Origin: Alphaproteobacteria bacterium
Lineage (GTDB): Bacteria > Pseudomonadota > Alphaproteobacteria > UBA8366 > GCA-2717185
Assembly (NCBI GenBank): GCA_028822585.1
Contig: JAPKDL010000021.1
Location: forward strand, 1 to 37,049
Reading direction: 5' to 3'
DNA: 37,049 nt
The notes below the pieces were generated by a model, which did no database searches, was not told the DNA's origin, and saw only the letters and a program-made list of their open reading frames with translations. Made by a program: the position numbers and the translations under genes. The stretch's first letter is position 1. Every line of letters begins with the position of its first letter. Below, one piece after another: positions 2,924 through 10,544 of this stretch.

Positions 2924-4255
2924 TTACTTTGAAGAAGGGTGAAGGGTTCGGTCGATGGGCAGCAGTTGTTCGCCTAGCATGCCGTTCAAAACGACGTCAC
3001 GTGCTGTTTCCAAATCGAGCCCGTTTTGTTCAATCATGTCCTTCGACGCAGCGAGAATGGCGTCCACGTCTTGCATCAATTTATAGCGTTTGAACAAATC
3101 TTCCCGGTGCAGCCCCATCGACTCGCCTATCAATTCCATGAAGTTTACGATTTCGAAGGGCCAGGCGTTTTCGTGTGCGACAAGTTCTCGGTGGTCTGCA
3201 TGATAGACGCCCGCCAAAGTGGTGACATTTGCGTCTTCCGCCGCTTGGAACGTTTCAGCCAGCAACTTCTTGCCGGCGTCGGGTGCAGCGCGTAGTGACG
3301 TCATCTGGTAACCAATCCGGAGCATTTTCAAATCGACGAACTCCAATCCGGGAATGGCCGATAGTAGCTCGATAACGGCTTCGGTAACGCCGATGGCACC
3401 TGGATATTCGTGCAGCGCGACCCGTTTGTTCACGGGCGTCGTCAGCATTGGGCGTAATTCGTCCAGCCGCTTCGCTAGATAAACTGCGAACATGGTCATG
3501 TCGAAAGGGCTATTTTCACCGTCCTTGCTGGGCACAATGGTTTCGCTGAATTGAATTTGACAGGTCGGACACCAGGAAACGACTTCAGGCGCCTTAGATC
3601 GGATGAACCGTTCGATGGTTTTGTATCCGAGTTTGCCTGCGTTTTCCGAATCGCCGGGGCGCATTTGCAGGATGCCGCAACAATTCGCGGGTCCGCCATG
3701 GACTTCGTAGCGTGTGTCTAGTCGGTCCAGCACATCCAAACATAACAGGCCGATATGCGGTGTCCGCAACATGTTGCAGCCGGTATAGAAGACCAAATCG
3801 GGTGGTTCGGTGCTTAACGGATGTGAAGACGGACTGAGGCGATCCAACAATTCCGGAGACAATTGCAATCGTGACAGGACGCGAACGCCTCGGCTCATGG
3901 ATTGAAAGGCTTTCTTGCCGGTGTCTCGGCGGTCTTGCTCAGGTTCTGTTTGTCTCAGCGCACGTTGCGCCATGGCCAGCATGAAACGCGGGTTGATGCC
4001 GTAATCGCAGGCGGACAGGCAAAATCCGGACCCACAACATGAATTCGCCCACTTCGCTGAAATTTCGGGGCCTTCCCCCGTTTTCAGGATATCGATGACG
4101 CCCGTCGCAACTGCGGCGGCGTCGCCAACATCGAACCCCGCGGCACTAGGTGTTGGACAGACAGCGACGCAGTCGCCACATTTCGTGCAGGCGTCGATAA
4201 TTTCCTCGACACGTTGGTCCAGGGAATCGAGAAATTTTGTTGCGGTCTCTACCAT
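2924..4255 (-). CDS. (Fe-S)-binding protein, HdrB/GlpC/LutA-like
   Basis: A 443-residue iron-sulfur electron-transfer protein of the heterodisulfide reductase/glycolate oxidase Fe-S subunit type. The N-terminal motif CTKCGDCVAVCP is a classical [4Fe-4S] site. A second cluster site, CCGSGFCLSACDYG, has unusual spacing. A first cysteine-rich CCG-type domain is visible (YTGC...CCGI, mid protein). In the second half, where the family normally repeats a CC-containing motif, the sequence reads RIGYQMTSLRAAP with no cysteine pair. It probably passes electrons from a partner dehydrogenase to a carrier. ATG at 4255 is preferred: GAAAGGA lies 8 bases upstream, and the extra N terminus from 4321 is not family-like. 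The alpha/beta hydrolase gene follows in the same operon. Confidence 0.85.
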   Translation of the reverse strand: MVETATKFLDSLDQRVEEIIDACTKCGDCVAVCPTPSAAGFDVGDAAAVATGVIDILKTGEGPEISAKWANSCCGSGFCLSACDYGINPRFMLAMAQRALRQTEPEQDRRDTGKKAFQSMSRGVRVLSRLQLSPELLDRLSPSSHPLSTEPPDLVFYTGCNMLRTPHIGLLCLDVLDRLDTRYEVHGGPANCCGILQMRPGDSENAGKLGYKTIERFIRSKAPEVVSWCPTCQIQFSETIVPSKDGENSPFDMTMFAVYLAKRLDELRPMLTTPVNKRVALHEYPGAIGVTEAVIELLSAIPGLEFVDLKMLRIGYQMTSLRAAPDAGKKLLAETFQAAEDANVTTLAGVYHADHRELVAHENAWPFEIVNFMELIGESMGLHREDLFKRYKLMQDVDAILAASKDMIEQNGLDLETARDVVLNGMLGEQLLPIDRTLHPSSK

Positions 4256-8583: not shown

Positions 8584-9108
8584 TTACGACGCCGTAATCA
8601 TCCGCAAAATGGGTTCCAGCGCCTCGTCCGCGATGGCGTAGATTTCTGCATCCGTCCTGTCCTGAATGGGATGGGGGACATAGACGATGGCCGGGTCGAA
8701 GCCGAGCGCAGCGCCTTGCGCTATGGCGGCTTCTTCGAACGCAGTGGTGGCGATCATGCCGCCAGGGATGCCGCGAGAGTCGAGATCGGCAATGTCATGC
8801 AAACTGCACGATGTGCACGAGCCTCAATCGCTGAGCGCTTCAACCACAATGTCGCATTCCATCGCTATAGTCTGAACGACGTTAAGCGGCGCGACCTTTG
8901 TGTTAGTCGGCTTGGCGTAGCGTTTGACTGTCAATCCGCGTTCGGCCATGCATTCTTCTAATCGATCGAGGAAAACGTTACCACGCCGCTTACCAATATC
9001 CAATAACGCGATGGTCTTGCCCTCGAGCGAATCTGGGGGCGTGACCCGTTGGCGTTTCGCCGGCGAGACTTCCGCCGTCGGGTCCAACAGGATCTGACTT
9101 TCAATCAT
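8584..9108 (-). CDS. UGSC-family selenoprotein (in-frame UGA read as Sec95)
   Basis: A 174-residue protein if TGA at 8826-8824 is read as selenocysteine. The frame runs from ATG 9108 through 94 residues ending CDIVVEALSD, then UGA, then GSCTSCSLHDIADLDSRGIP, to TAA at 8584-8586. The U-G-S-C motif is the hallmark that names this selenoprotein family, and Cys-containing homologues carry C-G-S-C there. A conserved start of the fold is visible in EGKTIALLDIGKRRGNVFLD. Both halves are in one frame with no other stop, and the similarity to the family runs across the UGA, which argues against a chance nonsense codon. A further Cys pair (C98, C101) follows U95. The start overlaps the stop of the upstream thioredoxin-like gene as ATGA, so the two are co-translated. 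The likely role is redox or nucleophilic catalysis at Sec; the substrate is unknown. A standard gene caller would report two fragments (8824-9108 and 8584-8802). Confidence 0.88.
8795..8811 (-). promoter_or_regulatory. candidate bacterial SECIS hairpin
   Basis: Read on the minus strand, TCGTGCA (8811-8805) pairs with TGCATGA (8801-8795) as a 7-bp stem (one G-U pair) closing a GTT loop (8804-8802). The loop starts 19 bases after the UGA, inside the 16-37 base window known for bacterial SECIS elements, and carries the expected G-U at the apex. It lies inside the coding region, as bacterial SECIS elements must. An overlapping alternative hairpin (TGCAC/GTGCA) also exists. Confidence 0.65.
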
Positions 9109-10544
9109 GTGCCGATCTCCTTGGTTACGAGTTTACTTCCGCGTTCGCCTGTCGCGGCCCAGCTTCCTATGATGGCGGACATCATACCAGCTATTCCACC
9201 CGCCCGCACGATGTTCAATCCGTCGGGTTTGAATTTGGAAACTTGTTCATCCGCCCTATCAGGCGAGATGCCTTCGGCGACGCCATGCGCGCCTTCGATG
9301 AAATCCGCGCCGGAGAAGGTCAACACCTTGTTAAATTCTTCCAACGCGCGAGCCTTCGACCAACCGGCTTCGCGGTACACTCGTAAATGTTCCGGCGACA
9401 GGACGATCATAGCGTCGTGCGCCTGAATTTTCTTGGGGTGACCGATGACACGCAACGACATGGCGAGCGAGCGGGTCAGCGATTCTGGCGTGCGGGACAT
9501 GTCGCCCATATTGCCTAACATGCCTTCTGCGGCATAGAGCGTTACGGCGGATTTGCCTGACGCAATTCCGCGATCCACCGAAAACGGGTCCCAGATTGGG
9601 TCTGATTCGTCTTCCGCCATGCAATAGGTCAATTTGCCGGGGTTGCCGAGCGTCGCTCGGTCGATCCCGCCGGGTACGCCACCGCCGACATTTCGAATGA
9701 CAAGTTGTAAGGCGCGGCCAATAGTGGAATTGGCGCGGTTTCCCTGGCCCAGAGCGTTGCCGCCGGAATTCATGCCAATGGCTTTGGTGATGGGACCGTT
9801 GACGATTACCATGGGAGCGGCGAAGTGAGTTGTGCACAGCAGGCCATGCATACAAAAGTCAGGCTCTAACGCCGCTTCGACAGCGGCCAGAACGACCGGC
9901 AGATATTCCGGTTTACACCCCGCCATGACGGCATTGATGGCAACTTTCTCCACCGTGCAGGACGCCAAATTAGGCGGGATATTGCCGAGCACTTCGGCGG
10001 GGTCTCGAGTTGTGCCGGTCAACATGCGCACGACGCGGACTTCGGTGGGTGGCACAACCGGAAGGCCGTCGCTCCAACCGCGTTCGAAGCCGACTTCGAT
10101 ATCGTCTTCCATAGCAGCGACTTCAATGCGACGGGCCTCCAAATTGGTGTCGCCAAATCGCACTGCCAGGGTTTCGGGCATTCCCGGCTCAACCGTGATG
10201 GAGCCGCAGCCGGGTTGGTTTTCGGGCAAATCGCCGCCCAATCCATTAATCCCGGTCAAGTCGCGCCATTCGGTTTTGTTCCAGCCAATGGCGCGTTCGA
10301 CCTCCTTGCCGCCTTTCCAGCGGATTAAGGTAGGGACGGTTTCGACGTCCAAACTGTACGAATTTTCCAACCCCGTATCATCGATCACATCGTTGAGCGA
10401 ATCTGGAAAGGACGGATCGTCCTGGCTGAATACCGATAGGACGACGTCGTGGGCGGCGAGTTCCGCATAGACCGACTCCAACAATTCACATGTCGGACAT
10501 TCGCGCTTGGCGACAATGATAAAACCGTCTTGAAATGTCGGCAT
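9105..10544 (-). CDS. thioredoxin-fold/large-domain protein, UGSC operon partner
   Basis: A 479-residue two-part protein. Residues 1 to about 95 form a thioredoxin-like domain with C16-P-T-C19 and a later VPT that fits the cis-proline loop. A large C-terminal domain (about 130-479) begins EVGFERGWSDGLPVVPPTE and contains several conserved Gly/Asn/Cys segments (AVMAGCKPEYLPVVLAA, GMNSGGNALGQGNRANSTIG). I recognise the WSDGLPVVPPT-type domain only as conserved and uncharacterised. No signal peptide is visible. The start ATG 10544 has GAAGGGG 5 bases upstream. Its TGA stop overlaps the ATG of the UGSC selenoprotein gene by four bases (ATGA), which implies the two act together. One plausible role is that the CPTC domain re-reduces the Sec/Cys site of the partner, but that is inference. 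Confidence 0.8.
   Translation of the reverse strand: MPTFQDGFIIVAKRECPTCELLESVYAELAAHDVVLSVFSQDDPSFPDSLNDVIDDTGLENSYSLDVETVPTLIRWKGGKEVERAIGWNKTEWRDLTGINGLGGDLPENQPGCGSITVEPGMPETLAVRFGDTNLEARRIEVAAMEDDIEVGFERGWSDGLPVVPPTEVRVVRMLTGTTRDPAEVLGNIPPNLASCTVEKVAINAVMAGCKPEYLPVVLAAVEAALEPDFCMHGLLCTTHFAAPMVIVNGPITKAIGMNSGGNALGQGNRANSTIGRALQLVIRNVGGGVPGGIDRATLGNPGKLTYCMAEDESDPIWDPFSVDRGIASGKSAVTLYAAEGMLGNMGDMSRTPESLTRSLAMSLRVIGHPKKIQAHDAMIVLSPEHLRVYREAGWSKARALEEFNKVLTFSGADFIEGAHGVAEGISPDRADEQVSKFKPDGLNIVRAGGIAGMMSAIIGSWAATGERGSKLVTKEIGT

Follow-up and report, generated by a model that had tools for sequence, protein, structure and literature searches.

The window, i.e. the whole stretch of 37,049 nucleotides analysed here, carries on its minus strand a selenoprotein gene of the UGSC family (8584..9108), which codes for 174 amino acids with selenocysteine (Sec) at codon 95 and was delimited by translating UGA as Sec and by matches to the family models PF24696 and NF041046. 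Its frame opens with the ATG at 9108-9106, reads through a UGA at 8826-8824 as codon 95 and closes with the stop codon at 8586-8584, and this UGA is the single interruption of the 174 codons; the initial annotation, in which two minus-strand open reading frames had been joined as one frame split only by the UGA, was exact in its coordinates. The in-frame UGA (8824..8826, minus strand), read as U95 both from the sequence and from the occurrence of UGA or Cys in homologues, opens the motif U-G-S-C-T-S-C within the segment A-L-S-D-U-G-S-C-T-S-C-S-L-H-D, which includes C98 and C101. The joined frame matched Pfam PF24696 over residues 7-172 (E 8.4e-36; 124.1 bits, cut-off 25) and narrowly passed the NCBIfam model NF041046 (UGSC_fam; 127.1 bits, cut-off 125). 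The protein-like character claimed for both sides of the UGA was borne out as well: the two halves match PF24696 separately and in consecutive profile positions, the N-terminal half alone at positions 2-92 (E 1.1e-12) and the C-terminal half alone at positions 102-171 (E 5e-9). The window gene is a further member of an already named family. A ribosome-binding-site-like AAGGAG (9117..9122, minus strand) lies 8 nt before the start codon, and the latter overlaps the last bases of the upstream gene in an ATGA (9105..9108, minus strand), an arrangement of the two reading frames that suggests coupled translation. This overlapping upstream gene, hereafter the partner, was absent from the initial annotation and is the main clue to function.

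The UGA of the window gene almost certainly encodes Sec, a reading supported in comparative sequence data by the conservation of the codon, its exchange for Cys, the conservation of the downstream frame and the presence of a complete Sec machinery. UGSC genes were found in all 11 genomes of the family to which the host belongs, nearly every match with one TGA, and 289 sampled genomes of the class yielded 75 loci in 28 genomes, with TGA in 74 of them and CGSC in the remaining one. The Cys form was also recovered in five plasmid loci, from Natrinema, Halalkalicoccus, Arthrobacter, Roseovarius and Variovorax, so that homologues spanning the UGA exist with either residue at that position. Beyond the UGA, third codon positions account for most of the differences between relatives (8, 6 and 43 differences at positions 1, 2 and 3, respectively, in locus L050). 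A search of the host genome, of 3.80 Mb and 95.7% completeness, for selA, selB, selC and selD showed all to be present: selA and selB are neighbours on a contig that also holds selC, about 10.6 kb away, and selD carries an in-frame TGA of its own. Among the 289 genomes of the class, selA occurs in 41, including 27 of the 28 with UGSC where about 4 would be expected, and the sole UGSC genome in which it was not found is only 77% complete. A true stop codon, a sequencing error or a pseudogene has nothing in its favour beyond the default reading of UGA, and we attribute to it a negligible probability, given that the codon is kept in nearly all homologues and replaced by Cys at the same place in others, that the frame beyond it is conserved under purifying selection, and that the host has a complete Sec machinery.

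A hairpin just after the UGA bears on the same question. Its core, UCGUGCA-GUU-UGCAUGA (8795..8811, minus strand), is a putative bacterial SECIS, proposed on the basis of folding, a synonymous-shuffle control and pair counts; the stem begins 12 nt and the apical loop, GUU, 19 nt beyond the UGA, and an extended hairpin around the core (8782..8825, minus strand) folds at -16.3 kcal/mol. Across 85 homologues the hairpin region was more stable than after shuffling of synonymous codons (mean z -1.54, 73% below -1), as compared with a mean z of -0.23 and 27% below -1 for other stretches of the same genes (Mann-Whitney p 4e-14, an optimistic value since the sequences are related). Among 61 distinct unfused sequences, conservation is 82 to 100% for six of the seven stem pairs and 85% for the outermost, and the loop is always GU[UCA]; in one subfamily a double change from C-G to G-C in the stem accompanies the replacement of Cys101 by Trp, and the fused UGSC subfamily forms another stem, equally far from the UGA. 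Judged by these controls, the hairpin is more stable than coding for the protein would demand, and is selected; it lies just downstream of the UGA, as expected of a bacterial SECIS, and may be regarded as a putative target of SelB. A scan of the window with Rfam returned no match to a SECIS family, the only match being a tRNA gene at 692-765. The initial identification of a UGSC-family selenoprotein is upheld by both curated models, the host Sec machinery, the exchange between UGA and Cys and the selected hairpin. Sixteen further candidates in the window for frames joined by a UGA next to Cys were scanned and none looked real, most of them being the wrong strand of clear genes.

Across the family, U95 (replaced by Cys in the Cys form), G96 and C98 do not vary, nor do D105, F124 and P147, and H146 is nearly invariant; C101 is not conserved family-wide and is Trp or Ala in other subfamilies. 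The redox site that had been proposed around Sec and its two neighbouring cysteines is accordingly retained for the invariant pair U95-C98, while C101 is not necessarily involved. The description of the family as marine-rich could not be sustained: UGSC was among the commonest selenoprotein families of the 2008 ocean survey, with 255 sequences, and in that same survey it was more abundant in non-marine samples (PMC2398784).

The partner gene (9105..10544, minus strand) codes for 479 amino acids and represents an unnamed family, characterized here by its adjacency to and co-occurrence with UGSC; no Pfam or NCBIfam family model matched the protein. Residues 1 to approximately 125 (10173..10544, minus strand) constitute a thioredoxin-like domain, recognized by profile, Pfam matches and invariant columns, namely C16-P-T-C19 (C-x-T-C across the alignment), V70-P71-T72 and C113. 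The N-terminal profile reached thioredoxin structures with a best E of 1.5e-4, and the Pfam models Thioredoxin or Thioredoxin_2 were matched in 5 to 6 of 13 members; the match of the window partner itself lies below cut-off, and it is the profile alone that is convincing. The remainder, a core of about 340 residues (9135..10157, minus strand) with the signature DGLPxxPPT ... INAVMAGC ... GQGNRANxTIGRA, was defined from alignments and fused frames, and its invariant positions are D159-G160, P162, N204, A208-G209, P216, G250, G266, R277, N285 and E311. This core is fused to UGSC in proteins of 580-600 residues, one of them in the host. As far as the published description in the 2008 survey goes, UGSC was there reported in fusion with a domain termed 'Unknown_1' (PMC2398784), which is probably the partner core. 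Sequence searches against solved structures found no relative of the partner core and none of UGSC, and a predicted model of a fused partner-UGSC protein (pLDDT 88.4, pTM 0.90) gave lists of fold matches filled by the UGSC domain. A relationship of the partner to GrdE or GrdB was considered and rejected (hhalign 0.3 to 0.6%).

UGSC and its partner are closely bound to each other in distribution, in position and in sequence divergence. A profile search for the partner in the 289 genomes of the class recovered the identical 28 genomes that hold UGSC, and among 398 genomes of the phylum both occur in an identical set of 5. For 84 distinct UGSC sequences, the partner is found just upstream in 59, just downstream in 8 and fused in 14, that is, adjacent or fused in 81, and the other 3 show none within the short flanking stretch examined. 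Pairwise distance matrices of the two proteins are correlated with r=0.95, the best of 1000 permutations reaching 0.11. The Cys form is likewise paired with a partner, in haloarchaea and on plasmids of Arthrobacter, Roseovarius and Variovorax, and the host alone has five UGSC-partner units. These patterns of gene content and order make it very probable that the two proteins constitute an obligate two-component unit. Against it stands one haloarchaeal partner gene, on a plasmid of Haladaptatus halobius (L162), with no UGSC in the 4 kb examined on either side.

On the conjugative IncP plasmid p2-T1 of Acidovorax sp. T1, UGSC and the partner core form one frame of 854 codons with an in-frame TGA (L156:3365-5926), annotated only as a short 'hypothetical protein' (3431-3721). 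The megaplasmid pBEN of Paracoccus versutus (L160) carries a Sec-form UGSC with an adjacent partner in a cultivable organism, and would be useful experimentally. In the host, a tandem of two partner genes follows a UGSC paralogue and is itself followed by a thioredoxin-reductase-like gene (L071:5230-7292, contig C262), and this tandem is found again in relatives; another UGSC unit of the host has a PrdB-like gene at a distance of a few kb (L072:28-624, contig C2).

A supply of thioredoxin accompanies the pair in more than one form. The subfamily of the window has the thioredoxin domain fused to the partner; elsewhere the partner is without this domain, and the pair has an annotated trxB or trxB-trxA as its neighbour (Roseovarius, Arthrobacter and Variovorax). 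Thioredoxin-reductase-like frames were found in 8 of 116 UGSC loci and in none of 50 unrelated loci, although the two sets were unequal in total length (705 and 165 kb, respectively). The Cys-form genes have CoA transferases, TRAP and tripartite tricarboxylate transport proteins and PEP-mutase-family proteins as neighbours, a gene context that points to catabolism of small organic acids, and the surroundings in the window include genes of acyl-CoA metabolism. A conserved wider operon was rejected, since close relatives do not share the gene surroundings of the window pair. A role in handling sulfur, selenium or metals, in which Sec would serve as a ligand or carrier, was also considered, metal binding having been proposed for some small selenoproteins (PMC13188914). 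No genes for the transport of metals or selenium recur next to the pair, and this, together with the strict coupling to a large conserved protein, leaves such a role very improbable.

The AlphaFold2 model of the window UGSC protein (pLDDT 94.5) has five strands in strict alternation with helices, with Sec95 between the third strand and the next helix. Its best fold matches are flavodoxin-like and Rossmann-like, including receiver domains and lumazine synthase, and a flavodoxin/Rossmann-like domain is accordingly predicted. A thioredoxin-like fold, as suggested in the 2008 ocean survey (PMC2398784), is not supported by the model, as judged from the families in the fold list, and the UGSC profile aligned to thioredoxin with an hhalign probability of 0.6%. 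These results weigh on the possibility that UGSC is a generic thiol or selenol peroxidase, or a disulfide reductase, with a thioredoxin-like fold and a role in antioxidant defence. The fold suggested in the survey, the UxxC motif, the thioredoxin partners and a peroxidase activity of GrdB, reported in the title of a reference in PMC3091704, all speak for it; the confidently predicted fold and the thioredoxin comparison, however, argue otherwise, and an obligate partner with a core of 340 residues, as well as the CoA transferase and transporter neighbours, suggest metabolism rather than general defence. We consider this alternative unlikely. The fold matches also raise the possibility of a non-redox Rossmann-like enzyme (isomerase, racemase or lyase), in which Sec or Cys would act as acid-base or nucleophile and thioredoxin would only keep it reduced: PurE, lumazine synthase and hydantoin racemase are among the Rossmann-like folds matched by Foldseek/VIA, and D105, F124 and H146-P147 resemble active-site residues. 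These matches are, however, generic (Z near 9), Sec rarely serves non-redox work, and both the invariance of U95-C98 and the repeated links to thioredoxin favour redox chemistry, so that a non-redox enzyme is less probable still than a peroxidase.

A further indication of the chemistry came from glycine reductase. The UGSC profile aligned with GrdB/PrdB-like sequences of the same bacterial family at an hhalign probability of 92.5%, though over only about 60 columns around the active site; the highest value was 5.2% among 60 column-shuffled controls and 0.4% among eight unrelated proteins from the window, and reversed GrdB gave 2.0%. The NCBIfam GrdB model matched the UGSC protein weakly (E 0.011), and PF07355 (GrdB) gave no match to it at E 0.1. 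Where UGSC has the sequence U-G-S-C-T-S-C ... V-Y-V-P-H-P-I, that of GrdB in a relative is U-G-T-C-T-R-C ... V-A-I-P-H-P-L, the motifs U-G-[ST]-C-T-x-C and V-[PA]-x-P-H-P being common to both. On this profile evidence, UGSC is remotely homologous to the active-site region of GrdB. GrdE (PF09338) is absent from the host genome and the partner is unlike GrdE or GrdB, for which reason the pyruvoyl chemistry of glycine and proline reductases is not indicated. As a separate observation, the host has four further matches to the GrdB model (C69:13149-13493, C194:964-1179, C167:81256-81660 and C236:19735-19944), short genes similar to the C-terminal half of GrdB; GrdB-like frames in relatives (L089-L118) and in two places of the host stop at a TGA and, when read through, go on with U-P-N-C or U-P-V-C. 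By these frames, the host clade appears rich in PrdB-like selenoproteins.

Taken as a whole, the explanation that we regard as reasonably probable is that UGSC and its partner constitute one thioredoxin-fed selenoenzyme of two subunits with GrdB-like chemistry acting on a small organic substrate. The UGSC protein would form a complex with the partner encoded upstream; Sec95 would lie at the start of a helix after the central strand of the predicted flavodoxin/Rossmann-like domain, which is distantly related to the C-terminal domain of GrdB that bears Sec, and U95 and C98 would act as a redox pair. The partner core most likely binds and presents the substrate, upon which the Sec selenolate would attack it and leave a U95-C98 selenenylsulfide; the partner's own thioredoxin domain would reduce the latter, as would a separate thioredoxin and thioredoxin reductase in other species. 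The narrower proposition of a thioredoxin-fed GrdB-like reductase, in which the reductive direction of the reaction is our inference, is finely balanced and leans at most slightly in favour. The occurrence of several copies per genome with different partners suggests different substrates. More tentatively, and falling somewhat short of an even chance, these units may constitute an unrecognised class of two-component thioredoxin-driven reductases, in which the Sec site of glycine reductase was taken into aerobic bacteria and archaea; a genome would hold several such units, each presumably acting on a small metabolite of its own.

Such selenoproteins were described as still largely uncharacterised in a 2026 review (PMC13188914). 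The UGSC family is already known, and its setting with a constant partner appears to be new: neither this partner, nor the thioredoxin supply, nor the link to GrdB was found in descriptions of the UGSC family or in the open-licence literature searched. The unit is easily missed, as annotation gives the partner no name beyond 'hypothetical protein' and pipelines can cut the UGSC gene short. With a constant partner, a source of thioredoxin and a distant connection to glycine reductase, it becomes a defined complex to express and assay, which is practical because Cys forms occur in cultivable organisms and need no Sec insertion.

Compared with known systems, the window gene agrees with the UGSC family of PF24696/NF041046 in full-length match, UGSC motif, Sec/Cys site and size, and shows no difference from it. 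The N-terminus of the partner resembles thioredoxin (PF00085) in its CxxC, its cis-proline-type VPT motif and its profile match, while differing from it in being divergent and fused to an unnamed domain. GrdB has about 430 residues as opposed to the 174 of UGSC, which is without the N-terminal half of GrdB, and the UGSC system has no counterpart of GrdE or GrdA, its partner being unrelated to the pyruvoyl subunit. UGSC nevertheless has in common with GrdB (PF07355) and PrdB a similar-looking active-site segment U-G-[ST]-C-T-x-C and the later PHP motif, and in glycine reductase, where electrons pass from NADPH to thioredoxin reductase and on to thioredoxin (PMC3091704; PMC10298544), thioredoxin is likewise the electron donor proposed here for the UGSC pair.
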